A stretch of 37,181 bases of DNA from a virus. Shown piece by piece: positions 10,812 to 37,181 of the stretch. The stretch is from positions 1 through 37,181 of the IMG/VR virus record IMGVR_UViG_3300030101_002057; one strand, given 5' to 3'. Both the position numbers and the translations under genes were made by a program. The stretch's first letter is position 1. Each line of letters starts with the position of its first letter. The notes beneath the pieces were generated by a model. It made no database searches and had not been told where the DNA came from. It saw nothing but the letters and a program-made list of their open reading frames with translations.

Positions 10812-10820
10812 AACAATAAT

Positions 10821-10857
10821 ATGTAATCACCCTTATATAGGGTGGTTACATTATTTT
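10821..10857 (+). terminator. Intrinsic terminator after the 272-residue protein gene
   Basis: Thirteen base pairs pair 10821-10833 (atgtaatcaccct) with 10839-10851 (agggtggttacat), with one G/T wobble (10827/10845) and a five-base AT loop. The trailing ttatttt serves as a weak U-tract. It lies 10 bp after the stop and 18 bp before the next ATG. Together with the hairpin at 9936 it brackets a single gene. Confidence 0.75.
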
Positions 10858-10869
10858 AAAAAAATATAT

Positions 10870-15600: not shown

Positions 15601-18600
15601 TCTTTTGACATAAGGCTTTTAGTTGGTCCAAGAAATAGAAATAATCAAAACTTTCAAAAACACCCTACAAGAACAGCTACAAGTACAGCTGGCCATACTC
15701 ACCCTTTTAATAGATCAGGTAACGTAACATACTCAGGTCAAAGCGGTCAAAGCACAAAGTTTAACGCAAACTTTTTCAGTGGTGGTGGTTTTGCTAGCTT
15801 CACGGCTGGTGGAGGACATGAGTTTGGCCATTGTGGTAATAACAACTCTAACAGCAGAACAAAAGATTGGTGGGAGTCTTTTAGCGGTGATAGACTTTAT
15901 ATAGAAGGTATAAAAGTAAATGGATATAATTGGAAGTCATCAGGACATCCTCACCATAACAATAGAAATGGTGTTCACTTCACACACAGTGGAGATCCAG
16001 CAACACCGGGAAGTGGTTATGGTACTCAAGGAGGTGATGACTGTGGTGGTATAAGACATTACTCTAGTTATAGTAGAATATACTTTGGCTTTATGGGTTG
16101 GTTTGCAGATCACAGCGCTGCACAGTCAAGAATACACAAGTTTTACGAGTTAATGAAAACATCTGGAACTATATTTAGGTTTAGAGATGACCCAACACAA
16201 ACAGCTTATAAAGTTATAGACAGAGGTGGTGCAGCTGAAGTTTATAATTTTGCAAGAACTAGTGGTTGTAAAAACTGTAAACCTCATAAAACTGGTTGTA
16301 AAAGTAGTTTCTTTAATGTTATGTTTGAAAAACTTGATGGTGGTGGACCAATGGACCCAAAAGAGTTTGACGTATTAAGCTTAATGAGACATGATGGTGG
16401 TAGCACAACTGCTATAGATATTTTAAGAGAAGACTACGTTTCAGAAAGCGGTGGCTCTGAATTATCTACAGAAAACCCTGCTATATGGGAAACTGAACCA
16501 AAAGAAGATATAGGACTAGATATTTATTACGAAGCTACAGGTTGTTTACCTCTTGATGTTGATGCTGACAACAATGAGTTGTTAATACCTCTTGGCTCTA
16601 CATTTAAAGTTAGAAATCCATCTGGCAATTTTCATTTAGCAGCTGATGGTATTACAGATGTAATATATGAAGTAACAGCTGTAAATCAAGATGGCAACAA
16701 AGATATTACCAACTTAACTGTTAGAAATACTATTGACAATACAATGGGCTTAACTGACGCTATTAACCACAATCAAATAGTAGCAATTGATAGGTACGAC
16801 GGTTCATGTATATCTTTGTACATTGTAAAAGAGTCTGGCAACTACGCTGCTGGTGCTACAGCTGTAGGAATATTAACAGGTAAGTCGCCTACAGATCCTC
16901 AAGGAGGCCCTGTACCATGGAGAGCTCCACATTTTAATCCTTTAAAATTAGGTTGGAGTAATTGTTTTGCTTTTGGTAACGGTATAGAGTCAGATAGAGT
17001 TAGAGATGGTTTTGCTTTAACGCAAATAGCAAACGGTGTAAAAGCATCTTCTGTAGCCGCTCAGGAATATGCCGAAGAGCATAGAGCTAGTGGTTTTATA
17101 TGGTCTGGTATATTTAACTCTATTAGTGGTACTAATAATTTAAACCAGTTTATACAAGCAGAGCCAATAACAAAAGACTTAAACCCAAGTCATGGTAGCA
17201 TACAAAAAATTGTAGCTAGAAATACTAACACTTTAGCTTTTTGTGAAGATAAAATATTAAGTATATTAACAAATAAAGACGCTTTATTTAATGCTGATGG
17301 TGGTGCTAACGTTTCTGCTAGCAATAAAGTTTTAGGTAACGCAACACCAATACCTGGTGACTACGGTATATCTACAAACCCAGAGTCTGTGTCTGTTACA
17401 TCTGACGCTATATACTGGTGTGATCAAATGAGAAGCCAGGTTCTTAAACTACAAGGTGGATCTAGCATAAGTGTAATATCTGAAGCTGGTATGAAAGATT
17501 ATTTTAACGATAATTTAAAAGATATAAACTTTGCTATAGGTAGTTACGATGATAAAAAATCAGAGTATAATTTAACGCTGGCCCAAATGAACGGCAGGTA
17601 TCAATATAGACCTACTACAACAACTATTAGTTGGTCTGATAGAGCTCAAGGTTGGACAAGCTTTAAGGACTTTAATGGTTTAGAGTTTGGTGTTAGTTTA
17701 AATAATGAGTATTACACATTTAGACAAGGTTCAATGTGGAAACATCATACTAACAACACTGTTAACAATTTTTACGGCGTTCAATATTTTTCTGATATTA
17801 CAATGATATTTAACGAGATGCCTAGCTCTGTAAAAAGTTTTAACTTAATAAACTACGAAGGCACGCAGGCTAGAATAACTGAGTTTTCAACCGTAACTCA
17901 AGGCGGTGTTAATTATACAGATGGTGAGTATTACAACTTAAACGCCAAAGCTGGTTGGTACTTAGACAATTTAAAAACAGATTTACAAGACGCTGAAAAC
18001 ATAGAGTTTAAAGAAAAAGAAGGCAAGTGGTTTGCTAGTTTAAAAGGAGTTACATCTACAGACGCTAACTTAGACCAAAGAGAGTTTTCTGTTCAAGGCT
18101 TAGGTGTTGCTTCTATAAGCTCAAGTGGTAGTACAGGTAGAATATTTAAAATAACAGTAAAAGTTAATAGCACAGCTTCTGATGGTACTAACTGGGACTC
18201 TAGCGGCGCTGATCCTTCTACATTTAGGTTCCTTGGTCCTAGCTCAACACCTACAATGACAGAGCAACAACCAACAGGTAACGGCATTGTAACTGATACT
18301 ATAAGTAACATGGTTTTAAACTCACAACAAGTTGCTCAATACTCTGGTTTTGATTTAGACGCTGCAGACTTTGAAGTTCCAGGTGGTACGCTTACAACTA
18401 GCGGCTCTGGTAATTCAACAATTTATATTTACACTAAGGCCTCGGGTTGGAACGCAGATCCTGAAGTTAGTCAAGTTGAATTTTTTAATCAAGGTATAGC
18501 TGGTGATCCTGGTAACAGAGTTTCTGTAAGAATATCTTACAACTCTTTTACAATGCCTAGTTCTGATAAAACTATATTTGTAGATGTTGATTTAAAGAGT

Positions 18601-22709: not shown

Positions 22710-25700
22710 ATGTATTTAAATCCTCAAGATAAACAAAAACTTAAAGATGCGGTAGCTCAAATGAAAGCTGATAGGGTTCCTGTGCAGCGAGCTCAAGCTT
22801 TAATTGATACTTTTATAAAAAACAGACAATCTGTGTATGCTCAGCAAAAAGCTCAGGAAATAGAAAGGCAAAAGCTGGCTAATCAAAAAATTGAAGAAGA
22901 TAAAAAGCAAGCGGCACAAGACGAAAAAGATAGAAAAGAAGCAGAAGCAAAAGAGGTTGCTGCAATGAATAAAAACAGTGATTTTGATTGGCGTAACTCT
23001 GTAACTTGGGCTTCAAAAAATAATGATGACATTGTAGCTAGGTTTAAACAAGAATACGGTTCTGTAAATTTTGGTATTGAGCCAACAACAGGTGATAGAG
23101 TTGTTGTTAGGAGGCCTGATGGATCAGAAGAGACTATAACTCTTGATGGCAGTAAAGAAACTATTGCTCAGTTAAACATGTTAAAAGTAGATTTAGATAG
23201 AGCAAAAGAAAATGTTATTAAAGAAGGAGTTGGCTATAACGTTTTAATTGGTGCTGATACACGCGCTAGAGGTACTAGCACGAAAAGATTTGAAAATGAT
23301 GACTTAAAAAGAGCTAATTTAGCCTATAAAAATATAGGTTTAGAAATTAAAGCAACAGGCAGAAAAGATCCGAAGCAAGGTATGGCCTTAACATACGAAA
23401 TTAAAAAGGAAGGTGAGCCTACATTTACAGGCACTGTCGCTGAAATACAAGAGTATTTATCAAATAGAAAAAACTTTAGTTTAGAAGATAGAGAGCAATT
23501 AGAAAAAGACGGTTTAAAAGCTGCCGAAAAAGAGCAAGAAATATACAAGCAAATACAGAACTCGACTGGTTATACAATACCAAAAGAAACATCTGAAAGT
23601 AATTATCACAATAGCAAACAAGCTGTTCGTGACGCTCAAATATTATTTGAAGGAGTTTCTGACGATGGTATAAAAATGATTGAGTCGTTTTTAAATTTAC
23701 CTATAGAGGGTGATGAAAATTACAAATCAACTAGGTTTAAAAATTTATTTTCAGATGAAGTTAAAAACAGATTAAGCGAGGAAGATCAAAAAATATTTGA
23801 TCAAGCTGTAATTAAAAGTGGAGAAAAAGATGAAAATGGTAAAACTATATTTGACAGGTCATTAGATAGACAAATAAATAATGATAACCAAAAAATATGG
23901 AACGCTAAGTATACTGAAAGGTTAAACAGTGGAGACGCTAAACTGCTAGTTCAATACGGTACTAAAGTAAAATCTAGAGAGTTACAAATTAATTTAGCAG
24001 AAGAAGAAAAAGAAATACAAGCTAATGTTGAGGAAATAAAGTCAGATTACAAGAAAAATTCTCAACAAAATATTCAAAACATTAGATCTGTAATGAACGA
24101 GGCTAAAAGTGATGGCGTAACTATTACACCTAAAAAAGATTCTAATGGAAAAACTTTATATGTAGCAAAAGGTGACTTAGCTAGTAAGTACCAACCACTG
24201 TTAAATACTTATACTCAAAAACAAAACAGTCTTGACAAAAAGTATAATACACAGCTAACAATAGAATCTAATAGATATAAAAACTGGTTTACAAACAATC
24301 AAGATAACGAAAGAATATCTACATTTGCAAATCAAGAAAATGATCTTTCTGATATTATGCTTGATCAATTTGGCGATGCCGTTAGAGGTATAGGCGCTAC
24401 TGTACCTATTTTATTTGGTAGCGAAAGCGCTATAGCAATGCACAAAAGTAGACAAGATGGCGCAGCTGCTTATACAGAAGCTTTAGATTTTAAAACAGCT
24501 AAAGCAACAGGTCAAGGTGGTAGATATTCTCTTATAACCTTAGCTCAACAAGCACCAAACATAATGCTGGCCGTCGCTACCCAGGGTGTTGGTACCGCTT
24601 TTGGTGCTAGCGCCACTGTGGCCAGCGCTTTAACAGCAACTTCTTTTGGTTTAAACTCTGGTACATCTAAATACGCTGACTTAACAATACAGCATAACGC
24701 GGCTATAGCTGCTGATGAAAAATTAAAAGAGCTAGAAGAAAACAAAGACTTTATGTCTTATGAAGACTACATAAACCAAAGAGCCGCGCTAGAAGAACAG
24801 TCAGCTTTAAAAGACATGTCTAGAGAGCAAATAGTTGGGCAGTCTATAGTTACAGGTTTAATTGAAGGTGGTGTTGCCTTTACTCTTGGTACAATACCTA
24901 ACGCTAGTAAATTAGTTAAAGGTGTTATAAAAGGTCCTGGCGATGATATAATAAACGCTATAACACAAAAGAATTTACAGTATTATGCTGGTGCTGGTCT
25001 TGAGTTTGGTAAAAGAACATTAGGTGAGGTCTTAGAAGAAAGTATAATACATTTTGGTGATGTAGCCTCAGAGTCTGCAATACTAGGTAAAGATGCTGAC
25101 TTTGATGGTTGGGAAGATGTTGTTGCTAGTTCAATTATAACTGGTGGTGCAATGAACGGTCCTGGTATAGCTTATACTTCTATAATGAACAGAATGCATA
25201 CTAAGTCTGATAGAGGTAGGTTTAATGATATAAAAAACCAAATTAATTCATACAAGCAAGAATTAGCTTTACTTCCTAATGATGGTAGTAATGATACTCA
25301 AATACAAAGAGAGTCTTTAATAACAGGTATACAGCAAGAGTATCAAAAATCTGTTGGTATACAAAATGAAATGGAGGTTGGTGCTATGCTGCTTGGTGGT
25401 GAGGGTACTAGAAAATTACTAAGAAACGGTATTGTATTAGATAATATATATAACGAAGCTAAAGTTATACCTGGTGATTCTCAAAATGTAATTGATGAAA
25501 AGCTAGAGAAACATAGAGAAACACTAGGTAAAAGCGAGTTAAAATCGTTTAACAACAGATTAAAAATAGCTACTGATACAAGAAATAAACTTTTAAATAG
25601 TGTAGACTATACAGATGGTCATAGAGTTTGGGGTAAAGTAGGTGAGTTAGCTCATAAAAAATTATTAAAAACAGATCCTGCTTATAAAAAAATGGACGAC

Positions 25701-28700
25701 AAAGCTAGAGCAGCTAAGGTTCATGAGACAGTTAAAAAGCAAGTAGATCAAAAAATGATTAAAGAAGCTAAATCAGATCCTAGTATTAAAGCTTTAGTTG
25801 AGCAGCAAATTTATACAGCGGCAGGTGTAGAAATAGTTAGAGATAAAAGAAAAAGAACAAAGGCACAAAGAGAAGCTGAAAACGAAGCTTACCTACGTTT
25901 TGGTAGATTAATGGGTGGTTTAAAAGCAGAAGCTATATCAGTTAATAGAAAAGAAGAGGTAAATGCTAAGTCTGTTATAGGTGATAAAAGATTAGAAGGA
26001 TTACAAATAGTAGAAGTTGCAAAAGACGGTTTTGTAGATACTATACGTGAGATGGAGGCTAACGGCGAGATGAGAGAGGGTGAAAGCGCTGATGACTTAA
26101 TAGCAGAGCTTAAAAACGGAGATACGTTTGGTGTTATTGTTGGTGGTAAATACATAGTAACAGATGCTAAAGCTGCTGCTAAAAATTTAGCTGAAGGTAA
26201 ATTATATCAAGGCACAGTATTCTCACACGAAGTAAAACACGCTGCAGATTTAAAAGCTTTTACACCAGACGAAATGAAAGTTTATTCTACAAACTTACAG
26301 GAGTGGACAAAACAAAATGCACCACCTATACACGCTGAAGCTGTAGCTAGACTTGTTGGTAATGTTAAGTATAGTGGTTATGATACTAAAAAGCCATTTG
26401 AAGAGCAAAGTGAAATAGTACATGCTGAATACGGAAACTACGTTCAAGACGCTTTAAAAAGAAGGCAATACAAAAAATTTAGAGACAAGTTATATAAAAA
26501 CAAAGCTGGTATAACATCTTATCTACCTGGAGATTTTAAAACAGACACTCCACAAAAAGCAGCTACATACTTGTCAGATCATATGCAAGCTTTTGATAGA
26601 GGTGACATGGGTAGATTAACTAAGAAAAGAATAGACGCTAGAAAGAGAGATATTACTTTACCTGATGGTACTAAAGTTAGAAGATCTAGTAATTTACAAG
26701 AAAGATTAGTAAGAGAATATAAAGGTAGTAAATCAACAAGAGCACAAGTTGGTGCGTTAATAGATAGCATGCTAGCAGTTGATTTTGATGGTAATCCAAT
26801 TACTGGTGATAGAAACCAAATAACTCAGTTAGAATATGAGATAGGTGGTATAATGAACAACATAATAAAAAGATTATACGATCCTATTAAAGCAGATAAT
26901 AGAAGAGGTGTTACAAGAGATGATTTTAAAAACAGTTTATTTACAGAAGCTGTTACGTTAATAAAACAAGAATACGATCCAGCTGTACAAGATCTTGATA
27001 AGTTTTTAAGTAGTAGATTAAATTTAAGAGCTAACAGCTTGGCTAAAAGATTAGGTATTCAACAAGTGTTTACATCAGACTTAGATAATGCTAAAAACGT
27101 ATTGTTTGATGATGATACTGATGTTGAAATTGATGACGATGGTAATGTTATTGAAGGTTCTACAGAGTTTACTGATGGTATGAACTTTACACCAGAGCAA
27201 TTAAAAGCTATAGAGTCTGAAGTTGAATTAGTATTAGGTGGTATACTTCCTAGCATTACAGCTGAAAAAGGAAAAAATCAAGTAGTAAGTCCTTTGGTTA
27301 GTGATTTAAAGAAAAAGTTTTATGAAGAAAAAAATCCTATACAGCAAGCTATAGAAGCTACTATGGGTAAAACACCTCAAGAAATAGAGATGTGGTTAAA
27401 AGATCCAAAAAATAAAGCTTTAATACTTAAAAAAATGCCAACTACTTGGTTAGCTAAAAACATGCCTAAAGCTGTAGAAAAACTAGTTATACAAGAAGAC
27501 GGCACAAAACAGTGGACAACAGATCATATCGGTAGAAAGAAAGGTACAAAACCTGGTCAAGTAGATTTTTATAAATCAACAGAAGAAGGTCCTTATAAAG
27601 GTATGACCGATGGTAAACAAAAAATTAGACGTAATCCTAAGGCTGTAACTGATATAACCTCTGTAGATATTATTAAAAAGTTTTTTAATGGTAACACAAT
27701 GACGCAGCTTAGAAGAGGTGGTCTTGATACGTTAACTAGAGCTATGGCTCAAGAAATAGGTTTAGAACAGTTTAGAGCTAATTTAGAAAACGATAGTGAT
27801 ATAGCTAAAATGTTTAGGTCTAGACAAGAGCTTTTGTATGGTGAGCTTGGAGATGCTGTTGTTGCTAAAGCTATAGATCAGTATGAAAGAGGTAATGTAT
27901 TAAAAAGTAGTGCAGGAAACTTTGATCCAGCAAAAGCACAGCTTGACATGGTTTACGCTAGAGGCGCTGTTCAAGTTGGTTTAGAGTTTGGTAAAGAGTC
28001 AGGTGAGTACCGTTCGATAATTGCAGGAATAGAGGCTGAGTCACCTGGTTCGTCACGTTTTGTGGAAGCTATGATGGACAAAGTTGCAGGTGCTGGATAT
28101 AGTTATGAAAGCGCTGGGTTTTTAAAACTAATGAAAGATCTAGATCCCGATGGTAAAATATCTAAACTAATAGATGAAGGCAAACATAGAGTTCAAAACG
28201 ATAAAGGTATTATAGAAGACAATGCTAATGATTATGCTGATGATATTTTAGAATATTTAGCGCCACTTTTAGATAAAGATACTTTTAACAGTAACCTTCT
28301 TGACACGTTCTTTCACTACAGATCTCTTAAAGCTGCAGAAAAAAACAAAAAAGGTGTTGCAGATCCTTACTATCAGACTAAACAAGATTTTATAAGTAAA
28401 ATGACAAGCAAAGGTGGTGAAGCTGGATTTATTATAAATAAAGGTAATAGTAAGTTTAGAACTCAATACGCACCAATGCTTCACACAAAAGATAGCTTAC
28501 AGCAAAAGCTTAAGTATTTATCAGAGCAAGATTTTAAAACAGTTGGCGACAATAATATAAAAATTTTAAAAAATTTATATAGAGCATTAAGACAGGCTAA
28601 TGTAAAGCCTGAAACCGTTTTAAAAGTATTACAAACACAATCAAACATAGTTAACGGCCCAAGAGGTTTAAGCGGTGTTGAGTATTTTATGTTTGGTAAC

Positions 28701-31700
28701 TTTATTGATGGTACAAAGTTTAATCAATTATACGAAGGTGATGTTGATGGTAATAATGCTGTTACTTCTGTTGAAGATAGCAGGTATCAACAGTTTATAA
28801 AAGATTTATCAGAATATGATTTTGCTGAAGAAAGATTAGCAGCTAATACAGAGTATTATTCAAAGCAAAGATATACAAAGGCTGGTAAACCCGCTAAAAA
28901 TGGTGAGCCACTTACTGGTGACAAGCTTGCTATGGCTGCAGCAAGAAAAACATACACAGATCTTTTAATCAAAGGCGAGCACGTTGGTCCAATGGCTAGA
29001 ACAAATGCTAAGATTGGCGCCGCAATACTTAATAAAAAATTAACAGACGATCAATTTAATACAGAGCTTGATAATATTTTAGAAGACCACGTACAGTTTA
29101 TGGGACCTAACTTTGTAATGGACATGCTTGACAAAGAGCTTGGGCCTACAAGTTCAGAGGGTATTACTAGAATAACAAAAGGTTTACCTAATGAAATTAC
29201 AAAAAATATATATCACACTAGCGGTAAGCTTGCTACAGATGTTATTGTAGAAAAACAAAAAATTACAGATCTAATAGAAGATAGAACTGTACTAGCTAGT
29301 AATGGCAAAAACTCTAAACAGATATTAGGTGAAGCTGCTACGCAAAAATACTTAGATGCAGAAAACAAAGGTATAAGTGTTTTAGATTTTGATGACACGT
29401 TAGCCACTAGCAAATCGCTAGTTGAGTTTACAAGACCAGATGGCACGACAGGTACGCTAACACCAGCACAGTACGCCGCTGAATATGAAAGTTTAGCTGA
29501 CCTTGGTTATAAGTTTGATTTTTCACAATTTAACAAGGTTGTTGATGGTAAAATTGCACCGCTATTTAAAAAAGCTAAAAAGCTTGCTAACAAGTTTGGT
29601 ACTAACGATATATTTATATTAACAGCTAGACCGCCTGCAGCTCAAAAAGCTATACACAAGTTTTTAAAAGATAACGGTTTAAACATACCTATACAAAACA
29701 TAACTGGGCTTGGTAATTCTACAGCTGAGGCTAAAGCGCTTTGGGTTGCTGATAAAGCTGCCGAAGGTTACAATGATTTTTACTTTGCTGATGACGCGTT
29801 AAAAAATGTACAAGCAGTAAAAAATGTATTAGATCAGTTTGATGTTAAGTCTAAAGTAAGACAAGCTATACCTACTTTAAAAAGCTCAGACGCTGGTAAA
29901 ACAGTTAATGAAATGATAGCAAGAAACCTTGGTATTGCGGAGTTTAAAGAATATTCAGCTGCTAAAGCAAAACTTGTTGGCGATAAAAAAGGTAAGTATA
30001 AATTTTTTATACCGCCTAGCGCAGAAGACTTTAAAGGCTTAATATATCCATTGCTAGGTAAAGGAGCTAAAGGCGATGCTGATATGAAGTTTTTTAAAGA
30101 TTTTCTTTTTGATCCATATTCAAGAGGTATGCAACAAATAAACAATATGGCTCAAGGATTATCTGTTGATTTTAAAAACTTAAATAAAGCTTTACCTAAC
30201 GTTAAGAAAAAACTAAAGCAAAAAATGCCTGGTCAAGAATTTACTTACGATCAAGGATTAAGGGTTTATATGTGGGATAAAGCTGGTGTTGAAATACCTG
30301 GTATATCTAAGGCAGACAAAAAAGCTATATTAAAAGAAATAACTGGTGATACAGAGCTTACTCAATACGCTGATACATTGACCAAAATAGTTAAGTCGCC
30401 AAGCTATATAGAACCTACAGATGCTTGGTTAACTAGCTCAATACCTCAAGATCTCCACAGTATAACTATGGGTGAGAATAGAACTGGCATGCTTACTGAG
30501 TTTATTGAAAATAGAAAAAAGATATTTGGCGAGTGGCAAGGTGATAGACTAAATGGACCTTTAATGAATAAGCTAGAAGCTGCTCTTGGTACTAACTGGA
30601 GAGACGCTATGGAAGATATATTGTGGCGTATGGAAAACGGTACTAATAGAAACTTTGGTACTAACAAACTTACAAACAGATTTACAAACTGGGTTAATAA
30701 CTCTGTTGGTGCTATTATGTTCTTTAACGGTAGATCAGCTGTGCTACAAACACTATCAACAGTAAACTTTATAAACTGGTCAGACAATAATCCAGCTAAA
30801 GCAGCTGCAGCGTTTGCTAATCAAAAACAATTTTGGAGAGACTTTTCTTACTTGTTTAACTCAGACATGCTTAAACAAAGACGATCTGGTAACAGAAGGT
30901 CTGTTAGTGAAAGCGAAATAGCGCAAGCGTATCAAAGAGGTGGTGTTAGCGGGTTGTTACAAAAATTATTAGAGTTTGGTTTTTTACCTACACAAATAGC
31001 TGATAGCTTTGCTATTGCCTCTGGTGGTGCTACGTTTTATAGAAATAGAGTTGAGTCATTAGTAAAACAAGGTATGTCAAGAGTTGAAGCTGAAAAACAA
31101 GCTTTTACAGACTTTCAAAAGATAACTGAAGAAACTCAGCAGTCTTCTAGACCTGATATGATTTCATCACAACAAGCTTCACCGCTTGGTAGATTAATAC
31201 TTGCTTTTCAAAATACACCAATGCAGTATGCTAGATTAACTAAAAAAGCTTTTCTTGATTTAAAAAATGGTAGAGGCGATGCTAAAACAAACATATCAAA
31301 AATAGTATATTATGGCGCTGCTCAGAATCTAATATTTGGTGCGCTACAACAAGCATTGTTTAGATTTATGTTTGATGATGATGAAGAAAAAACTGAAGGT
31401 GAAAAAGCTGCAGAAAAAGAAAGAGCTACGTTTAGATTATTAAACGGATCAATAGACTCTATATTACGTGGTATTGGTGTTGCTGGTGCTATTGCTTCTA
31501 CGCTTAAAAATATGATTATTAAATTTGCTGAAGAAGATAAAAAAGGTTTCCGCATGGACACGGCTGCTATAATAATGGAAATGTTACAGCTATCACCACC
31601 TGTTGGTAGTAAAGTTAGAAAAGTAAATACTGGTCTTAGAACTTATAAGTTTAAACGTAGAGAAATAGATCACATGAACACTTGGGATATAGACAACCCA

Positions 31701-32081
31701 GTATGGTCTCCTGTTACTCAAACAATATCAGCATTAACAAACATACCTACAGACAGGCTGTATAAAAAAATAATGAATTTACGAGAAGCTGGTAATAGTA
31801 ACAATGAGGCTTGGCAACGTATAGCATTATTGCTTGGTTGGAACACTTGGGATGTTGGCGTAAGAAACCAAGAAGTTATAAACGCTAGAGGTGAAATTGA
31901 AGAGCTAAGACAACAAGCAAAAGAAAAAGAAAAAGAAGAAAAAAGAAAAGAAAAAGAAAGATTAAGAAAAGAAAGAGAAGCAAGAGAAGTTCAGTGTTCT
32001 GCACGTACTAGAAAAGGTAAAGGACCAAGATGTAAAAATAGAACTGAAAACAAATCTGGTAAGTGCTATGCTCACCAGTAA
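22710..32081 (+). CDS. Giant multi-domain internal virion / polyvalent protein (zincin-like + HAD + Cys/His finger)
   Basis: The protein has 3123 residues. In order: a charged coiled-coil N-terminus (~1-100); helical sequence; hydrophobic Ala/Gly/Thr segments (~611-655 and ~710-740) that could insert into membrane; HEVKH at 1173-1177, a zincin-type HExxH with later acidic residues (EQSEIVHAEY, ~1230); LIKQEYDPAVQDLDKFLSSR (~1417-1436), loosely like sigma-factor region 2; a full HAD set (DFDDT 2226-2230, LTAR 2304-2307, FADDA 2359-2363); a conserved C-terminal block with NTPMQYARLTKKAF (~2835) and SILRGIGVAGAIAS; a KEKEK coil; and C3096/C3108/C3119/H3122. The length, helical nature and location after two internal proteins fit a T7 gp16- or DarB-like ejected protein; multiple enzyme domains recall the 'polyvalent proteins' described by Iyer and Aravind. 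Zinc and phosphatase activities are inferred from motifs. Confidence 0.74.
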   Translation: MYLNPQDKQKLKDAVAQMKADRVPVQRAQALIDTFIKNRQSVYAQQKAQEIERQKLANQKIEEDKKQAAQDEKDRKEAEAKEVAAMNKNSDFDWRNSVTWASKNNDDIVARFKQEYGSVNFGIEPTTGDRVVVRRPDGSEETITLDGSKETIAQLNMLKVDLDRAKENVIKEGVGYNVLIGADTRARGTSTKRFENDDLKRANLAYKNIGLEIKATGRKDPKQGMALTYEIKKEGEPTFTGTVAEIQEYLSNRKNFSLEDREQLEKDGLKAAEKEQEIYKQIQNSTGYTIPKETSESNYHNSKQAVRDAQILFEGVSDDGIKMIESFLNLPIEGDENYKSTRFKNLFSDEVKNRLSEEDQKIFDQAVIKSGEKDENGKTIFDRSLDRQINNDNQKIWNAKYTERLNSGDAKLLVQYGTKVKSRELQINLAEEEKEIQANVEEIKSDYKKNSQQNIQNIRSVMNEAKSDGVTITPKKDSNGKTLYVAKGDLASKYQPLLNTYTQKQNSLDKKYNTQLTIESNRYKNWFTNNQDNERISTFANQENDLSDIMLDQFGDAVRGIGATVPILFGSESAIAMHKSRQDGAAAYTEALDFKTAKATGQGGRYSLITLAQQAPNIMLAVATQGVGTAFGASATVASALTATSFGLNSGTSKYADLTIQHNAAIAADEKLKELEENKDFMSYEDYINQRAALEEQSALKDMSREQIVGQSIVTGLIEGGVAFTLGTIPNASKLVKGVIKGPGDDIINAITQKNLQYYAGAGLEFGKRTLGEVLEESIIHFGDVASESAILGKDADFDGWEDVVASSIITGGAMNGPGIAYTSIMNRMHTKSDRGRFNDIKNQINSYKQELALLPNDGSNDTQIQRESLITGIQQEYQKSVGIQNEMEVGAMLLGGEGTRKLLRNGIVLDNIYNEAKVIPGDSQNVIDEKLEKHRETLGKSELKSFNNRLKIATDTRNKLLNSVDYTDGHRVWGKVGELAHKKLLKTDPAYKKMDDKARAAKVHETVKKQVDQKMIKEAKSDPSIKALVEQQIYTAAGVEIVRDKRKRTKAQREAENEAYLRFGRLMGGLKAEAISVNRKEEVNAKSVIGDKRLEGLQIVEVAKDGFVDTIREMEANGEMREGESADDLIAELKNGDTFGVIVGGKYIVTDAKAAAKNLAEGKLYQGTVFSHEVKHAADLKAFTPDEMKVYSTNLQEWTKQNAPPIHAEAVARLVGNVKYSGYDTKKPFEEQSEIVHAEYGNYVQDALKRRQYKKFRDKLYKNKAGITSYLPGDFKTDTPQKAATYLSDHMQAFDRGDMGRLTKKRIDARKRDITLPDGTKVRRSSNLQERLVREYKGSKSTRAQVGALIDSMLAVDFDGNPITGDRNQITQLEYEIGGIMNNIIKRLYDPIKADNRRGVTRDDFKNSLFTEAVTLIKQEYDPAVQDLDKFLSSRLNLRANSLAKRLGIQQVFTSDLDNAKNVLFDDDTDVEIDDDGNVIEGSTEFTDGMNFTPEQLKAIESEVELVLGGILPSITAEKGKNQVVSPLVSDLKKKFYEEKNPIQQAIEATMGKTPQEIEMWLKDPKNKALILKKMPTTWLAKNMPKAVEKLVIQEDGTKQWTTDHIGRKKGTKPGQVDFYKSTEEGPYKGMTDGKQKIRRNPKAVTDITSVDIIKKFFNGNTMTQLRRGGLDTLTRAMAQEIGLEQFRANLENDSDIAKMFRSRQELLYGELGDAVVAKAIDQYERGNVLKSSAGNFDPAKAQLDMVYARGAVQVGLEFGKESGEYRSIIAGIEAESPGSSRFVEAMMDKVAGAGYSYESAGFLKLMKDLDPDGKISKLIDEGKHRVQNDKGIIEDNANDYADDILEYLAPLLDKDTFNSNLLDTFFHYRSLKAAEKNKKGVADPYYQTKQDFISKMTSKGGEAGFIINKGNSKFRTQYAPMLHTKDSLQQKLKYLSEQDFKTVGDNNIKILKNLYRALRQANVKPETVLKVLQTQSNIVNGPRGLSGVEYFMFGNFIDGTKFNQLYEGDVDGNNAVTSVEDSRYQQFIKDLSEYDFAEERLAANTEYYSKQRYTKAGKPAKNGEPLTGDKLAMAAARKTYTDLLIKGEHVGPMARTNAKIGAAILNKKLTDDQFNTELDNILEDHVQFMGPNFVMDMLDKELGPTSSEGITRITKGLPNEITKNIYHTSGKLATDVIVEKQKITDLIEDRTVLASNGKNSKQILGEAATQKYLDAENKGISVLDFDDTLATSKSLVEFTRPDGTTGTLTPAQYAAEYESLADLGYKFDFSQFNKVVDGKIAPLFKKAKKLANKFGTNDIFILTARPPAAQKAIHKFLKDNGLNIPIQNITGLGNSTAEAKALWVADKAAEGYNDFYFADDALKNVQAVKNVLDQFDVKSKVRQAIPTLKSSDAGKTVNEMIARNLGIAEFKEYSAAKAKLVGDKKGKYKFFIPPSAEDFKGLIYPLLGKGAKGDADMKFFKDFLFDPYSRGMQQINNMAQGLSVDFKNLNKALPNVKKKLKQKMPGQEFTYDQGLRVYMWDKAGVEIPGISKADKKAILKEITGDTELTQYADTLTKIVKSPSYIEPTDAWLTSSIPQDLHSITMGENRTGMLTEFIENRKKIFGEWQGDRLNGPLMNKLEAALGTNWRDAMEDILWRMENGTNRNFGTNKLTNRFTNWVNNSVGAIMFFNGRSAVLQTLSTVNFINWSDNNPAKAAAAFANQKQFWRDFSYLFNSDMLKQRRSGNRRSVSESEIAQAYQRGGVSGLLQKLLEFGFLPTQIADSFAIASGGATFYRNRVESLVKQGMSRVEAEKQAFTDFQKITEETQQSSRPDMISSQQASPLGRLILAFQNTPMQYARLTKKAFLDLKNGRGDAKTNISKIVYYGAAQNLIFGALQQALFRFMFDDDEEKTEGEKAAEKERATFRLLNGSIDSILRGIGVAGAIASTLKNMIIKFAEEDKKGFRMDTAAIIMEMLQLSPPVGSKVRKVNTGLRTYKFKRREIDHMNTWDIDNPVWSPVTQTISALTNIPTDRLYKKIMNLREAGNSNNEAWQRIALLLGWNTWDVGVRNQEVINARGEIEELRQQAKEKEKEEKRKEKERLRKEREAREVQCSARTRKGKGPRCKNRTENKSGKCYAHQ

Positions 32082-32111: not shown

Positions 32112-33200
32112 ATGAAGAAACTACTAATATTACTATTAATAATAATAACATCTTGCTCTACACCAAAGACTTGTTGTGCACAAGATATAGACATACAATC
32201 ATTATTAAAGTTTTCTACTTTTTATGCGGCTGTTAACGGTGGTACGTCATTATCAGATGTCGAAGTATTTTCTGTAGACAATGGCTTGTCAACAAGTACA
32301 ATATCAACACCATATGACTATAACTTTACAGTTGGTCTTCGTAAAATAGCTAGGTTTGGTTATGAAAGCAAAGGTAAATCTTTTTACGATGGTACTGAAA
32401 CTAATTACAGCGACGCTGCTACCGTAGGTAAAGTAAGAGGTTTAGAGTATTTATTTGAAGTAGATTATAAAAGACAAGAAGGCATAGACTATATGGATCA
32501 ACATCATTTTTTAAGATGGAGTTCTGATGACGGTTGCCAAGACGAAGTGTGTATAAACTTTTTTGCTTTAAAGCTAGAATACTTAGAAGATGGTTTTGCT
32601 GATGTAAAATACTTTGAAGCTTCTGAAAGATATAGATATAGAAAACACAAAAACTTATCTTGGAATATAGGTTTAGCCCACAGGTTAGCTGAGCCATATG
32701 GTTACGACCCGCTAGCAGAGTGGATGTTGAGCAATGGAAACATACACTACACATATTTAGCTTTACAAGAAGGTTACAATGTAGACGTAGCTAATTCAGT
32801 GTATACAGATCCAAATGGTGAAGTTGTTGCTACAAGCGCAGATGTTTGGGAAAGTGTTGTTATACCTCAAGTGCTATCTGACTATGTAGATAGAAAACAA
32901 GATGAGCTTGAAAGAATAATGCAACACTCTATAGTAATTGGTTTTGATTATTATAAATACAGTAAAAAAACTTGGTTACACGCATGGGGTAACTTAATGC
33001 CATATCACTACGATAGTGGTAATGAGTTTTCTTATCATAACTTTAACGATGGTGATCAGTGGTATGATTACAGTGGTGGTTTAATATACGGTATAAAAGT
33101 AAATAAAAACTTAGGTTATTTTATTGAAAGCAAATACTACAAGTACTGGAACAGAGAGTGGTATGATTTTAAACTTGGCGTAAACTATACAATATTTTAA
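32112..33200 (+). CDS. Phage-encoded envelope lipoprotein, outer-membrane type
   Basis: The protein has 362 residues. MKKLLILLLIIITSC is a lipoprotein signal with lipobox I12-T13-S14-C15; residues +2 to +5 (STPK) lack the acidic tag for surface export, so the mature protein would probably face the periplasm. The body alternates short amphipathic strands rich in Tyr/Trp/Asp (YNFTVGLRKIARFGYES, VRGLEYLFEVDYKR, KLEYLEDGFADVKYFEAS, WNIGLAHRLAEPYGYDPLAE, HSIVIGFDYYKYSKKTWLHA) and ends in an aromatic-rich strand with Phe last (FKLGVNYTIF), the outer-membrane beta-barrel signature. I recall close relatives in uncultured marine phages but no function. It opens the envelope cassette after a 30-bp gap. 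Superinfection exclusion, receptor masking or virion release are possible roles. Confidence 0.7.
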   Translation: MKKLLILLLIIITSCSTPKTCCAQDIDIQSLLKFSTFYAAVNGGTSLSDVEVFSVDNGLSTSTISTPYDYNFTVGLRKIARFGYESKGKSFYDGTETNYSDAATVGKVRGLEYLFEVDYKRQEGIDYMDQHHFLRWSSDDGCQDEVCINFFALKLEYLEDGFADVKYFEASERYRYRKHKNLSWNIGLAHRLAEPYGYDPLAEWMLSNGNIHYTYLALQEGYNVDVANSVYTDPNGEVVATSADVWESVVIPQVLSDYVDRKQDELERIMQHSIVIGFDYYKYSKKTWLHAWGNLMPYHYDSGNEFSYHNFNDGDQWYDYSGGLIYGIKVNKNLGYFIESKYYKYWNREWYDFKLGVNYTIF

Positions 33201-33202
33201 TT

Positions 33203-33481
33203 ATGGCAAAAGAATTAAACGAAGATACTAGCTTTAAAGTAAGTATAAAAACGTTAACAGCAATAGGTTTTGCAATAGCAACAATAGCTGGTATGTGGTT
33301 TACTTTACAAGCAGATATAGCTGAAGCAAAAGAATTACCGGTTGTTGAGCCTGAAGTTACACGTATGGAGTTTGATATGAAAGATCAAATGATACGCAAC
33401 ACTATCATGGACACTCAAAAAGATGTTGAAGAAATAAAGAAAACATTAGAAAAAATAGAAGATAAATTATACGATAGATGA
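33203..33481 (+). CDS. Small single-pass membrane protein with coiled coil
   Basis: The protein has 92 residues: a polar N-terminus (~1-12), one hydrophobic segment TLTAIGFAIATIAGMWFTLQ (~17-36), then an acidic and Lys-rich helix ending VEEIKKTLEKIEDKLYDR (~75-92) with heptad spacing. This is consistent with an inner-membrane protein exposing a coiled coil, as in some spanins or holin-like proteins, but size and topology alone do not decide. It starts two bases after the outer-membrane-type gene and overlaps the thioredoxin-like gene by ATGA (33478-33481), so it is part of the envelope set. A lysis role is possible because no other holin or spanin is obvious in the window. Confidence 0.58.
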   Translation: MAKELNEDTSFKVSIKTLTAIGFAIATIAGMWFTLQADIAEAKELPVVEPEVTRMEFDMKDQMIRNTIMDTQKDVEEIKKTLEKIEDKLYDR

Positions 33482-33831
33482 AAAGAATAGACCTATCTCC
33501 TGCCATTTACATTTTAATATTAATTTTTGTTTTTATTACATCAGTGGCCTTTGGTCAAATACAAGTATCACAGTTTAATGCTGAGTGGAATAAAAATAAC
33601 CATGTACCTTGGGTTATGGAATTAAAAGACTGCAGAACAATATCATATGTAGATATAGCTAAAAATTCTGATTTAGCTAAAAAGCATAAAATTGCAGTTA
33701 TACCTACTATAATTATATTTAAAGATGGAGAAGAAGTTGCTAGGTTTCAAGCTGATCTTAGTTTTAAAATGGTAGCAACTCGTAAAGAAATACAAGAAGA
33801 AATAGATAATCAATTAATGAGCGACTTTTAA
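33478..33831 (+). CDS. Exported thioredoxin-fold protein lacking CXXC
   Basis: The protein has 117 residues. The N-terminal hydrophobic segment (~10-26) ends SVAFG before Q27, a plausible Bacteroidota signal-peptidase site. The mature part follows the thioredoxin order: a strand with VSQFNAEWN, a short helix, then YVDIAKNSDLAKKHKIAVIP (~57-76), where P76 is the conserved cis-Pro, IIIFKDGEEVARF (beta hairpin) and a C-terminal helix. The WCGPC site is absent: only one Cys (C52, in ELKDCRT) lies near where it should be. So it is a redox-inactive or single-thiol thioredoxin-fold protein, probably periplasmic. The ATG overlaps the previous stop by 4 bp. Role unknown; it may chaperone or tether a neighbouring envelope protein. 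Confidence 0.7.
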   Translation: MKRIDLSPAIYILILIFVFITSVAFGQIQVSQFNAEWNKNNHVPWVMELKDCRTISYVDIAKNSDLAKKHKIAVIPTIIIFKDGEEVARFQADLSFKMVATRKEIQEEIDNQLMSDF

Positions 33832-33832
33832 A

Positions 33833-34465
33833 ATGAGCAAAACAAAGAAAAAAATGGGAGATTTTAAGCATTCAGACGCACCTGATGCTGAAGGTAAGTT
33901 TACTAGCTTATCACCATCTGCCCTTGCTAGCTGGCTAATTAAAACTCGTAAAGGTAATTTATCAAAAATTATTAGTAGCTTAAACCAACAAATAGTTTTT
34001 AATAAAAAGAAAAAGCCGAGTTATGCCGCTAAAATGAAAACAACACAGAACATAGTTAGAAAACGTTTAAACAAAGGTAAATCAGCTGTTACATACAAAT
34101 CTCCTTTAGAAAAGAAAGATTGCAACTGTTGGCCTGGTTTTAAAAGAGTTAAAGGTAAAGCGCCTTGTGCTCCTAATAGTTGTGAAAAATCAAGTGTTAA
34201 AATAACAGAAGAAGCTTACGAAAGAAGAAATAAAAAAATGAGATCTAAGCACAAGTCTGAAACAGGCAAAACGCTAGGATCAAGACAGACTACTGGTAAA
34301 AACAAACGTAGAATTAGTTTTGCTTGTAGATTTGCTGGTATGAAAGGTAGTATGAAAAAACCAAACGGTCAACCAACACCTTACGCTATGGCTTTAAAAA
34401 AATGGGGCTTTGGTAGTAGAGAAGCGGCAGCATCGTTTTGTAGAAATAATAAAAACAAAGCATAA
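33833..34465 (+). CDS. Basic Cys-containing phage protein with SFxxRxxGMKGxMK domain
   Basis: The protein has 210 residues and is very Lys/Arg-rich. N-terminal part (~12-80): FKHSDAPDAEGKFTSLSPSA, then helices SWLIKTRKGNLSKIISSLNQ and MKTTQNIVRKRL, loosely like the DUF3175 layout. Middle (~88-120): TYKSPLEKKDCNCWPGFKRV then APCAPNSCEK, four Cys that could bind zinc. C-terminus (~160-206): RRISFACRFAGMKGSMKKPN then a PTPYAMALKKWGFGSREAAA stretch, a motif I recall as a small standalone domain in many marine phages and some giant viruses. High basicity suggests DNA or capsid association. It is followed two bases later by two more small basic proteins; together they may be virion cargo. Function unproven. 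Confidence 0.62.
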   Translation: MSKTKKKMGDFKHSDAPDAEGKFTSLSPSALASWLIKTRKGNLSKIISSLNQQIVFNKKKKPSYAAKMKTTQNIVRKRLNKGKSAVTYKSPLEKKDCNCWPGFKRVKGKAPCAPNSCEKSSVKITEEAYERRNKKMRSKHKSETGKTLGSRQTTGKNKRRISFACRFAGMKGSMKKPNGQPTPYAMALKKWGFGSREAAASFCRNNKNKA

Positions 34466-34467
34466 AT

Positions 34468-34722
34468 ATGGGATTTAAAATGAAAGGTCCATCAATGTAC
34501 ATGAACTGTGGTTGTGGACAAATGCCGTGTAAAACATACGGTTATAAAATGAGCTCTCCTTTAGACTCTCACTGTACTAGTAAACCCGCTAAGTATAGTT
34601 CACCGGCTAAAAAGAAAGACGCGTGCTATCGTAAAGCTAAAGCTAAGTATGATGTTTTTCCATCTGCTTATGCTAGCGGTTATATAGCTAAGTGTAGAAA
34701 AAGAGGAGGTAATATAGGTTAA
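34468..34722 (+). CDS. Small basic Cys-rich protein (MGFxMKGPS family)
   Basis: The protein has 84 residues. It begins MGFKMKGPSMYMNCGCGQMP, with Cys residues clustered in CGCGQMPC near 14-21. A second short element, GYKMSSPLDSHC (~25-36), precedes the C-terminal core KKDACYRKAKAKYDVFPSAY then ASGYIAKCRKRGG (~49-81), a motif I recall as very widespread in marine phages and giant viruses, usually as ACYxKVKxRYKVWPSAYASGxxVKCRK. The two Cys of this core may bind metal. No function is established to my knowledge. It overlaps the next gene by one base (TAATG at 34720-34724) and shares its N-terminal tag. Confidence 0.62.
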   Translation: MGFKMKGPSMYMNCGCGQMPCKTYGYKMSSPLDSHCTSKPAKYSSPAKKKDACYRKAKAKYDVFPSAYASGYIAKCRKRGGNIG

Positions 34723-35009
34723 TGGGTTTTGTAATGAAAGGCCCTAGTGCCTTAAAAAGCGTACGTAAAACTCAAGCTGGTTTAAACCTAAAACGTTGGT
34801 TTAAAGAAGAGTGGAAAGACAACAAAGGTAACGTTTGTGGATCAGACAAAAACAAATCAACAAAAGTATGTAGGCCATCAAAGTCTGTAAATAGCAAATC
34901 ACCTAAAACTTGGGGTCAAATGAGTAGTGGTGAAAAAAGAAAAGTAGTAACTGCAAAGAACAAAGTCGGTATGGGTAGACGTAGAGATTCTAGCAGTAAT
35001 GTTGCGTAG
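34722..35009 (+). CDS. Small basic protein (MGFxMKGPS family, KWFKEEW/CRPSK domain)
   Basis: The protein has 95 residues and is strongly basic. The N-terminal MGFVMKGPSALK repeats the tag of the preceding gene. The core AGLNLKRWFKEEWKDNKGNV (~19-38), then CGSDKNKSTKVCRPSK (~39-54), KTPKTW-like SPKTWGQMSSGEKRK (~59-73) and a KKVGMGRRR-like tail match a small domain I recall from marine phages and giant viruses (possibly the DUF5872 type). Two Cys (39 and 50) may bind metal. Its last 11 bp overlap the lipoprotein gene in another frame. Likely nucleic-acid-binding or structural; function unknown. Confidence 0.6.
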   Translation: MGFVMKGPSALKSVRKTQAGLNLKRWFKEEWKDNKGNVCGSDKNKSTKVCRPSKSVNSKSPKTWGQMSSGEKRKVVTAKNKVGMGRRRDSSSNVA

Positions 35010-35550
35010 ACTATTACTAATATTATTTTTTGTTTCTTGCAGTAAAGATGTTGATGATCTAGGGTTTAGAACATATGTTATACCAGAAGGTGAGCATAGC
35101 TCTGGTACTTTTGTAAACCACCCAGACAACTCAAGAATTACATTTGACTTTATTCTTGATGAATCAGCAATATATTATACTGAAGTGCCTGAAAACCAGC
35201 ACGATGTTAATAAAATTTACGGTATGAGTGACTTCGGTAAGCTTCATCAAAAATACTCTATAAGATTAGGTTGGAGATATATAAATGGAAAAATTGAGTT
35301 GTGCTGGTTAAGACACGAAGAAGGTAGACATAGCTCTGCTACAATAAGAATTATAGAACCAAACGAAATATACAACGCTTCAATAGATATAACTACGTTT
35401 TATTATATTATAGTTATAAATGGTGACACTACAGAGGTTAGGCGTAGGCCAGAAGGTTATTGGGGTTTGGTTAGAAGATATTATTTATACCCATATTTTG
35501 GTGGCAACGAATATGCGCCACATGACATAACGATTAAAATAAGAGAATGA
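34999..35550 (+). CDS. Host-type lipoprotein with possible surface-export tag
   Basis: The protein has 183 residues. MLRRLLLILFFVSC is a short lipoprotein signal (C14). The mature start CSKDVDD resembles the Bacteroidota lipoprotein export signal (Lys at +3 then acidic residues), which sends lipoproteins to the cell surface. The body is a beta-rich domain: FDFILDESAIYYTEVPENQH, NKIYGMSDFGKLHQ, SIRLGWRYINGKIEL, and a C-terminal signature YLYPYFGGNEYAPHDITIKI (~160-180) that I recall from many Bacteroidota lipoproteins. No CXXC or enzyme motif is visible. The gene is nested between the basic cargo-type genes and the secreted repeat gene, overlapping both by 4-11 bp. It was probably acquired from the host; surface decoration or exclusion is a plausible role. 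Confidence 0.68.
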   Translation: MLRRLLLILFFVSCSKDVDDLGFRTYVIPEGEHSSGTFVNHPDNSRITFDFILDESAIYYTEVPENQHDVNKIYGMSDFGKLHQKYSIRLGWRYINGKIELCWLRHEEGRHSSATIRIIEPNEIYNASIDITTFYYIIVINGDTTEVRRRPEGYWGLVRRYYLYPYFGGNEYAPHDITIKIRE

Positions 35551-37181
35551 AAAAATTATTAATATTATTACTATTACCGCTAAGTATATTAGCACAAAAA
35601 CAAGCTGTTATACACGTAACTACAGATCAATATCCTACAGAGACTTATTGGACTTTGTTTGCTGATAGCTTATATGGCGATACTATTTGTAACGTGCCAG
35701 CTGGTTATTACACTTCACCAAATACAACGTACACAGATACTTGTTATATAAACGACAGTATTACTGATATAACATTTTTAATGAGAGACACATATGGTGA
35801 TGGTATGAATGGTAGTTATTATGTATCAATATGTGGTGATACTATAATAAACTATGCTACGCCAAGTTTTCAAAGCGGTATATACTCTAACAGACAAGTA
35901 CCAAACTGCTTGCCACCTCCACCACCTCCACCGCCAGGCGCTTGTGTACCAACGCTTGTTAATATAAACTTAGATCAATACCCAGAAGAAACTAGTTGGG
36001 ATATAAAAGATAGTTTAGGCAATGTAGTATTTTCAGGTGGCACATATCCTAACGTGCCAGATTATCAACCACAATTTAAGTTTAAGTGTTTACCTGTAGG
36101 TGAATTAACTTTTACTATATACGATACTTACGGTGATGGTATAGCTGGTAGTTTATGGGGTGGACAAGACGGTTCATACTACGTTATGCAATGTGGTGAT
36201 ACAGTAGTCTATGGTACAGTTGCTAACTTTGGTAATGATACAAGTCACGTTTGGCAAGCTGACACTTGCATACCACCGCCACCTGTATATGGTTGCATGG
36301 ACGATGATTATGTAGAGTATAATCCGCTAGCTACAATAGATGACAGTAGCTGTGTAACTCTAAAAATATACGGCTGTACTGATAGCACAATGTATAACTA
36401 CGATCCTGTAGCAAACACAATGGAAGATATAGACTCTTGCGGTTATACTTTAATACTACATGATCTTATAGGTAACGGTTGGGTAGGTACAAGACTAGAG
36501 ATATGGCAAGATGCTGATACGTTAGAATTTTTTATGGACCAACAAATATTTAACCAGTCTTTTGATTTAGGTCTATATGCGCCAGCAAAAGTATATGCTA
36601 AACTTTTTGTAAGCCAACAAGCGCAGCACACAGCATTAGAGTGTGGCTTTACTTTACTAAATCCATTTGGTGATACTACATTAAGCGTGCAACCGCCTTT
36701 TATAGTACCTTTTAAAACTTATCAGTCAAATACATACTGTGGTAATATATGTGAAGAAAAAGTTTTTGGCTGCTTAGATACTTTAGCTTTTAATTATGTT
36801 GATAGCGCTAACACGGCTTTACCTTGTTATTATTATCCTGGTTGTATATCACCAGCATATTTAGAATATCACATAGATACCGCTAACGGTTATTATACAG
36901 ATATTAATATACAAGATAGTTGTGTAACACTAGCTGTTTTTGGTTGTACTGATTCACTAGCTTTAAACTATGATTCATTAGCTAATACTAACAACGGTTC
37001 TTGTATAGCTGTAGTTGAAGGTTGTATGGATATTAATGCATACAACTATAATATAGAAGCAAATACTAATGATTCATTGTCTTGTTTATATGCTGCTAAC
37101 TGCATTACAGGACCTGGTAATCCATATTGGTTAAATGATCCATGCTATGCTTGGGTTATAAGTATAGATGATTATTGTTGT
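35547..37181 (+). CDS. Secreted multi-repeat protein (3' end outside window)
   Basis: The frame is open from ATG 35547 to the last base: 545 residues visible, no stop. MKKLLILLLLPLSILA before Q17 is a signal peptide. Two copies of a module follow: DQYP(T/E)ET/W… DTYGDGMNGSYYV…CGDT (~25-110) and DQYPEETSWD… DTYGDGIAGS… SYYVMQCGDT (~140-225), joined by an eight-Pro linker (123-130). D-x-Y-G-D-G looks like a Ca-binding turn. Then five Cys repeats of the type G-C-x-D-x8-NY-x-A-x…-S-C (249-269, 276-298, 408-427, 466-486, 492-513), with a third degenerate turn DLIGNGWVG (~306-314) between the second and third. This architecture is typical of secreted proteins of marine Bacteroidota, often exported by type IX secretion; the C-terminus with any sorting signal is out of view. 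It overlaps the lipoprotein gene by 4 bp. Confidence 0.78.
   Translation, partial: MKKLLILLLLPLSILAQKQAVIHVTTDQYPTETYWTLFADSLYGDTICNVPAGYYTSPNTTYTDTCYINDSITDITFLMRDTYGDGMNGSYYVSICGDTIINYATPSFQSGIYSNRQVPNCLPPPPPPPPGACVPTLVNINLDQYPEETSWDIKDSLGNVVFSGGTYPNVPDYQPQFKFKCLPVGELTFTIYDTYGDGIAGSLWGGQDGSYYVMQCGDTVVYGTVANFGNDTSHVWQADTCIPPPPVYGCMDDDYVEYNPLATIDDSSCVTLKIYGCTDSTMYNYDPVANTMEDIDSCGYTLILHDLIGNGWVGTRLEIWQDADTLEFFMDQQIFNQSFDLGLYAPAKVYAKLFVSQQAQHTALECGFTLLNPFGDTTLSVQPPFIVPFKTYQSNTYCGNICEEKVFGCLDTLAFNYVDSANTALPCYYYPGCISPAYLEYHIDTANGYYTDINIQDSCVTLAVFGCTDSLALNYDSLANTNNGSCIAVVEGCMDINAYNYNIEANTNDSLSCLYAANCITGPGNPYWLNDPCYAWVISIDDYCC
36291..37085 (+). repeat. Five imperfect Cys-flanked protein repeats
   Basis: Within the secreted protein, five units of ~20-23 codons each begin Gly-Cys and end Cys (starts at 36291, 36372, 36768, 36942 and 37020). 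They share the skeleton GC-x-D-x4-x-(Y/N)-Y-x3-A-x…-S-C, with aromatic/Asn in the middle. Units 1-2 and 4-5 are closely spaced; a beta-rich insert separates 2 from 3. They diverge at DNA level, so they are old repeats rather than recent tandem copies. Confidence 0.72.

Follow-up and report, generated by a model that had tools for sequence, protein, structure and literature searches.

A phage-encoded exported thioredoxin-fold protein with asparagines at the active-site cysteine positions, paired with a small predicted membrane protein and possibly used at host lysis

Thioredoxin (PF00085, with TrxA of Escherichia coli as its example) is the described protein with which the phage protein analyzed here has most in common: the fold, the cis-Pro-Thr, and the position of the active-site loop with its tryptophan. 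The phage protein differs in that it carries N-x-x-N, not C-x-x-C, in that it is exported, and in that it ends with a conserved C-terminal tail whose final residue is Phe. Judged from the alignment, its mature form also begins with the strand that precedes the active site and would thus lack the first strand and helix of thioredoxin. Since the defining CxxC is absent, the protein, as read from its sequence, does not qualify as a thioredoxin enzyme. Use of the fold by phages as a binding part and not as an enzyme has precedent, as host thioredoxin is a redox-independent factor in T7 DNA polymerase processivity and in filamentous phage assembly. Here, in contrast, the protein is encoded by the phage and secreted, and its cysteines have been lost for good. 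ERp29, CnoX/YbbN, phosducin, and Dim1, which we compare by fold only, have likewise kept the fold, lost catalysis, and taken on a binding role; we know of none of them as a phage periplasmic protein.

Two-component spanins (lambda Rz/Rz1 and T4 PseT.3/PseT.2), as described in the available parts of the sources, combine a small inner-membrane coiled-coil-like protein with an exported partner, a layout that the predicted pair described below would share, and are often encoded near the holin and endolysin. In the locus described here, however, the exported partner has a thioredoxin fold, is soluble, and carries no lipobox, and the outer-membrane part would be a separate predicted barrel. The window protein lacks a Cys in the vicinity of its signal peptide and so differs from o-spanins, which are lipoproteins; the system could therefore be termed spanin-like at most. 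The T4 antiholin RI and holin T, again within the available part of the source, similarly pair a secreted small domain with a membrane protein having one transmembrane helix; the predicted 92-residue membrane protein found here, in contrast to T, appears too short for a large globular periplasmic domain, and RI is not known to us as a thioredoxin fold. To our knowledge, outer-membrane breakage by Bacteroidota phages has been little studied. The available portion of a 2025 survey states that Bacteroidetes phages use only unimolecular spanins (PMC12596118), and the spanins named in the available portion of a flavophage paper are unimolecular (PMC8776804).

The window, by which we mean the whole stretch of DNA analyzed, is an IMG/VR virus record of 37181 bases whose terminase and portal are akin to those of Elemovirus, Cellulophaga phi38:1-like, and Maribacter phages. 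The thioredoxin-like ORF is situated at the end of the late gene block of the window. The features considered are given below, with counts out of 81 referring to close relatives, counts out of 145 to the diverse relatives of alignment A3, and counts out of 171 to loci flanked on either side by 3.5 kb or more.

33478..33831, plus strand: exported thioredoxin-fold protein of 117 residues, terminated by a stop codon, with NxxN for CxxC (ORF, PF00085, alignments, and model).
33478..33555, plus strand: signal peptide, codons 1-26, with predicted signal peptidase I cleavage after AFG and before Q27 (from sequence; Q27 invariant, 81/81).
33589..33600, plus strand: codons 38-41, N-K-N-N replacing C-G-P-C (N38 and N41, 81/81; NxxN, 125/145).
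33631..33633, plus strand: codon 52, the sole Cys, not an active-site residue (C in 77/145; most others have A, V, Y, or I).
33703..33708, plus strand: codons 76-77, cis-Pro-Thr of the thioredoxin substrate groove (P in 145/145, T in 143/145).
33817..33828, plus strand: codons 114-117, conserved C-terminal tail with Phe as last residue (F117 in 138/145; Y in 2, gap in 5).
33203..33481, plus strand: partner gene cl2, 92 residues, whose last 4 nt are shared with the beginning of the thioredoxin-like gene (gene pairing, alignment A2, and hydrophobicity).
32112..33200, plus strand: third gene, cl3, 362 residues, with a signal peptide, a lipobox-like ITSC, and a predicted outer-membrane beta-barrel (in 165/171 loci; sequence examined by eye).

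A preliminary description of this DNA had named VDIAKNSDLAKKHKI, IPT, and FKDGEEV as markers of a thioredoxin fold behind a signal peptide, and all of these are present in the ORF at 33478-33831, the signal peptide ending in a likely signal peptidase I site. The corresponding pattern before Gln, which is a permissive one, fitted 190 of 191 relatives, and the mature window protein was taken as starting at Q27. Searched against Pfam, the window protein scored 28.6 bits with PF00085 Thioredoxin (gathering cut-off 23.5) across residues 49-93 only, and PF00085 matched all 25 members of alignment A1 (E<=0.01). Residues 27-117 were then modeled by AlphaFold2 with alignment A3, which consists of 145 of 158 nonredundant rows (13 were left out), the 158 having been drawn from 273 proteins. 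The resulting model had a pLDDT of 95.2 and a pTM of 0.86, and nearly all of the 50 matches listed by Foldseek against the PDB were thioredoxins. By VIA, the matches listed to solved thioredoxins had Z values of 10.2-12.9 and rmsd values of 1.4-2.0, the best being to 6mos (Z 12.9, rmsd 1.6 across 83 residues). The same method placed model residues 1..88 on residues 21..108 of E. coli Trx, with model residues 12 and 15 falling on C32 and C35 if the alignment is ungapped there; from these ranges, N38 and N41 would occupy the places of the two cysteines provided that no gap precedes them. The preliminary description of an exported thioredoxin-fold protein without CxxC was thereby confirmed. The beta-alpha-beta/beta-beta-alpha core, together with the predicted cis-proline before strand beta4 (P76, in all 145 relatives), places the protein within the thioredoxin fold superfamily. 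An earlier model made with close relatives only (A1) had a pLDDT of 65 and Foldseek TM scores near 0.3, with a weak Foldseek row to YbbN 3qou, and was replaced by the A3 model.

Examination of the former cysteine site revealed W-N-x-x-N in all 81 close relatives. The residues invariant in this set comprise F33, N34, A35, W37, N38, N41, W45, L49, D59, K71, and P76-G84, and the C-terminal part is also largely fixed. The codons for N38 differ (51 AAT and 30 AAC among the 81 sequences), and identity of the residue in 81 of 81 sequences whose codons vary indicates that the invariance is not due to chance. At the codon level, the median dN/dS for these sequences was 0.21 in the mature part, 0.09 in residues 76-117, and 0.54 in the signal peptide; purifying selection at 0.21 argues that the loss of the cysteines does not represent decay.

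Baits chosen from distant members widened the family to subfamilies at 22-40% identity. The active-site pair was N,N in 125 of the 145 rows of A3. In the other 20, the first position is taken by L, V, T, A, N, or a gap, and the second by N, S, A, K, or a gap. Relatives bearing CXXC, which according to the preliminary description would have made the loss a recent decay, were sought, and a Cys was found at either position in none of the 145. One distant subfamily has a full-length thioredoxin domain that reads FWAKFNEAN where FWAxWCGPC would be expected. In the most divergent subfamily (L356 and part of L441-L478), Phe replaces Trp, the first Asn is largely lost, and some members lack the second as well; the proline is kept, as is the C-terminal Phe in most, often as ESKF. 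Retention of the proline despite erosion of NxxN is more readily explained by a binding role than by a novel NxxN chemistry. From these sequences, the redox death of the family appears well supported.

We also examined 39 viral records, hand-picked for length and spread. A separate leaderless WCxxC thioredoxin is encoded elsewhere in nine of them (two of the nine proteins being identical), which argues that the exported copy is more than a decayed version of the phage's own thioredoxin. A3 matched in all 39 records, while PF00085 was silent (E<=0.001) in six because distant family members score below it. Selection has maintained the fold beyond the loss of its chemistry, and a thioredoxin that looks functional is encoded elsewhere by some of these phages.

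The collection scans covered the best 80 of 143, 373, 125, and at least 581 loci, so that distant relatives without the partner gene could have been missed. From a scan of genome contigs giving 61 loci, only L160, L161, and L167 were in the family, and the other 58 were dropped; 55 of these (all but L214, L217, and L218) encode thioredoxins, nearly all with CxxC, L206 reading WCVHS. Loci L082-L159 lie largely on the same contigs as L001-L080 and were excluded from gene-order counts, and all 16 of them that were read have NxxN.

Rather than a broken gene, the thioredoxin-like gene is one member of a conserved pair, the other being cl2, which encodes a small predicted membrane protein. Among the matches listed, 220 of 221 loci had cl2 upstream at a distance of no more than 700 nt, and in the sole locus without it the thioredoxin-like gene starts 49 nt from the contig end. 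With cl2 as the reverse bait, the thioredoxin-like gene followed within 900 nt in 116 of 118 loci, again among the matches listed; the two exceptions stop at a contig edge, and all three exceptions to the pairing are thus contig ends. These 116 loci added 84 gene sequences unseen with the first bait, bringing the two baited sets to at least 280 distinct thioredoxin-like gene sequences. The commonest spacing within the pair is an overlap of 1 or 4 nt (78 and 35 loci, respectively). Where an immediate upstream neighbor was called, it was cl2 in 210 of 219 loci; an antisense ORF was called over cl2 in six, and another gene intervenes in three (L227, L236, and L238). All 171 loci with sufficient flanks contained cl2. 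The pairing of the two genes is well supported by these observations.

The 92-residue product of cl2 has one predicted transmembrane helix at about residues 17-35, followed by about 57 residues that form a charged, coiled-coil-like tail (alignment A2, by eye). The positive-inside count favored an N-in/C-out orientation in only 99 of 143 sequences, with a borderline hydrophobicity of the helix (1.65), and a profile of the protein retrieved no convincing solved structure. The constancy of this partner bears on the preliminary description, which suggested for the redox-dead protein a structural or scavenging use, for example holding a neighboring Cys-rich secreted protein or inhibiting a host thioredoxin. 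Retention by selection was borne out, and since the protein is exported, free of the active-site cysteines, and selected in that state, a binding use is a sensible reading. The proposed partner did not fare as well, as the secreted repeat protein gene was near 106 of 171 loci only, versus all 171 for the 92-residue protein, and none of the results pointed toward inhibition of a host thioredoxin. The repeat gene and a giant gene, near 62 of 171 loci, serve as rough internal controls, short flanks lowering both figures. In the window, the secreted Cys-rich repeat protein is encoded at 35547-37181 and is interrupted by the window end.

The third gene, cl3, was located within 6.5 kb of the pair in 165 of 171 loci, upstream in 134 and downstream in 31. 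Its product in the window has amphipathic strands and a C-terminal YTIF, from which a barrel was predicted by eye. Lipobox-like sites were present in 54 of 239 proteins of this gene.

Many marine phages related to known Flavobacteria viruses carry this module, with the cysteines nearly always replaced by asparagines. PHROGs held no useful family for the thioredoxin-like proteins. When searched against named phages, these proteins gave either nothing or weak matches to canonical thioredoxins or unrelated sequence, with Elemovirus, Cellulophaga phi38:1-like, Maribacter, and Tenacibaculum phages and MW202828, which are relatives by terminase or portal, absent among those matches; tblastn of the 92-residue protein against named phages gave no match. 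From these searches, no named phage is known to us to carry the pair. In literature searches, no title or abstract was found that describes this system, whether as a thioredoxin in the lysis cassette of a phage or as a phage thioredoxin without redox activity.

We then examined the position of the module relative to recognizable lysis genes. A PF08291 peptidase was detected in 12 of the 39 viral records, in every case on the same strand and 0.5-7.3 kb downstream. Amidase_2 was detected in nine, eight of them on the same strand and no farther than 5.1 kb away, with four on the downstream and four on the upstream side, and the ninth, in record G023, 40 kb away on the other strand. The PF05105 holin was found in two records, both times on the same strand 0.4 kb downstream. 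DUF5675, which has weak similarity to Tlde1, was found in five, always on the same strand within 8.2 kb downstream; being a family of unknown function, it was left out of the count of wall hydrolases, which reduced that count from 25 to 20 of 39. A known wall hydrolase (PF08291 or Amidase_2) is therefore encoded on the same strand as the module and no more than 7.4 kb from it in 20 of the 39 records and at a distance in one, neither being detected in the other 18. Among the 171 flank-limited loci, an M15 peptidase was near 57, an amidase near seven, and PF05105 near five, so that most flanks show none of these. Structural genes are also found in the late region, and nearness to lysis genes could be loose for that reason; moreover, the loci are mutually related and the counts not independent, so that the value of 1.3e-15 obtained for random placement of the endolysin overstates the significance.

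No lysis gene was recognized inside the window, which ends 3.35 kb downstream of the module. In L003 and L004, relatives of the window at 88% and 86% identity, the order on one strand is the thioredoxin-like gene, a basic protein gene, the secreted repeat protein gene, one further gene, and an M15 peptidase gene. Given this order and the end of the window inside the secreted repeat gene, an endolysin gene is expected past the window end.

In the module-free relative MW202828, which is metagenome-derived, a PF05105 holin, a 207-residue protein, and an M15 peptidase are encoded in a row. By eye, the 207-residue protein has an N-terminal transmembrane segment and a beta-rich end, and the role of the module may be taken in MW202828 by such a protein, spanning the envelope in one piece. 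Comparable proteins are encoded in the module-free loci L359 and L360. In L359, a protein with an N-terminal transmembrane segment and a beta-rich, barrel-like C-terminus (by eye) is encoded at 35390-36013 on the minus strand, between a holin gene and an M15 peptidase gene. In L360, a like protein is encoded at 10605-11159 on the plus strand, a few genes after an annotated D-Ala-D-Ala carboxypeptidase. Neither protein had a Pfam match, and each is possibly a one-piece spanin. A crude pattern search beside the module for one-piece proteins with a transmembrane segment and beta-rich part gave no consistent candidate.

Taken with the fold and the gene pairing, this linkage leads us to propose, at just short of an even chance, that the thioredoxin-fold protein serves an envelope complex as a binding module without enzymatic activity, most likely used at lysis in the outer-membrane step. 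The protein would be exported by the host Sec system and freed into the periplasm by signal peptidase. There, the groove formed by the cis-proline and W-N-x-x-N, together with the C-terminal helix and terminal Phe, would grip a protein partner without disulfide chemistry. Its near-constant partner would be the 92-residue predicted inner-membrane protein with its putatively periplasmic coiled-coil-like tail, and with the predicted outer-membrane barrel the two would probably form a complex reaching from the inner membrane through the periplasm to the outer membrane. Host lysis would be its most likely use, breaking or bridging the outer membrane as spanins do, since the wall hydrolase, where found, is mostly encoded close by on the same strand. 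A more specific form of this proposal, which we regard as possible if doubtful, is an undescribed spanin-like lysis system of Bacteroidota phages in which the barrel and the inner-membrane coiled coil are joined by the NxxN thioredoxin-fold protein acting as linker and permanent non-covalent clamp. For marine phages, the pair offers a concrete candidate where a lysis or envelope function is missing. As to the terminal Phe (33817-33828), it is the last residue of the model and has a pLDDT of 62 despite its conservation in 138 of 145 relatives; speculatively, it may dock into the partner or into a PDZ-type host protein.

The linkage to lysis genes would also accommodate a pair that times lysis, with the 92-residue protein as a holin having one transmembrane helix and the thioredoxin-fold protein as its periplasmic antiholin, comparable to T4 T and RI. 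The adjoining and often overlapping genes are in keeping with this, as is the combination of a tailed, predicted membrane protein with a small secreted one. Binding of T to RI goes through the periplasmic domain of T, and this domain is globular in the available part of the source (PMC12162936), whereas the 92-residue protein has a short tail only. In addition, a PF05105 holin is encoded just downstream in some loci, so that a further holin is not obviously needed, and we consider this reading improbable.

The predicted outer-membrane protein gene beside the pair in 165 of 171 loci suggested a different function, superinfection exclusion or surface remodeling, in which the barrel would alter the host outer membrane and the pair would act as its periplasmic chaperone or anchor. 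Redox-dead thioredoxin folds do serve as chaperones in other systems, CnoX/YbbN and ERp29 being examples that lend this idea a precedent. The pair is constant, however, while the barrel gene switches sides (134 upstream, 31 downstream), and linkage to wall hydrolases would not be expected of an exclusion system. This explanation, too, is unlikely.

There is a slim chance that the module is a component of the virion or of genome delivery that enters the periplasm with the particle. It is the location in the window, where the module follows the giant 3123-residue gene that closes the late structural block, that raises this idea, but the secreted partners bear signal peptides, and the giant gene was detected near no more than 62 of the 171 loci, although short flanks may have reduced this number.

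Residual redox activity through C52, or a decoy function toward host periplasmic thioredoxins of the TlpA/DsbD type, is very unlikely. The thioredoxin groove is kept, and C52 is frequent in the window's own clade, with Cys in 79 of 81. The preliminary description had placed this lone Cys near the active site, yet it falls 11-14 residues past NxxN, where the model passes from helix alpha2 to strand beta3. Nor is it a conserved relic of the site: in A3 the position is Cys in 77 of 145 relatives, and 63 have A, V, Y, or I there, Cys being missing from 68 in total (one of these a gap). The position looks like a buried structural one. Moreover, the constant partner is encoded by the phage, which speaks against a host target. 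Decay of an ordinary thioredoxin into a pseudogene has a negligible chance in view of the at least 280 distinct gene sequences, the lack of a site Cys in all 145 aligned relatives, and the dN/dS of 0.21, and nothing was found in its favor.

Other genes surround the proposed binding module in the window. Those at 33833-34465 and 34722-35009, after the module, encode small basic proteins with Pfam matches to DUF6321 and DUF5872. Cluster cl0 (314 ORFs in 131 loci) forms tandem ORFs near the module in several mapped loci. The giant late protein of 3123 residues, encoded at 22710-32081, contains a weak polynucleotide-kinase-like stretch at residues 2217-2380 (phrog_415, E 6e-4). At 12697-20058, a structural protein of 2453 residues matches the C-terminal domain of the crAssvirus muzzle protein (PF25729, E 8e-8), hinting at a tail part in common with crAss-like phages.
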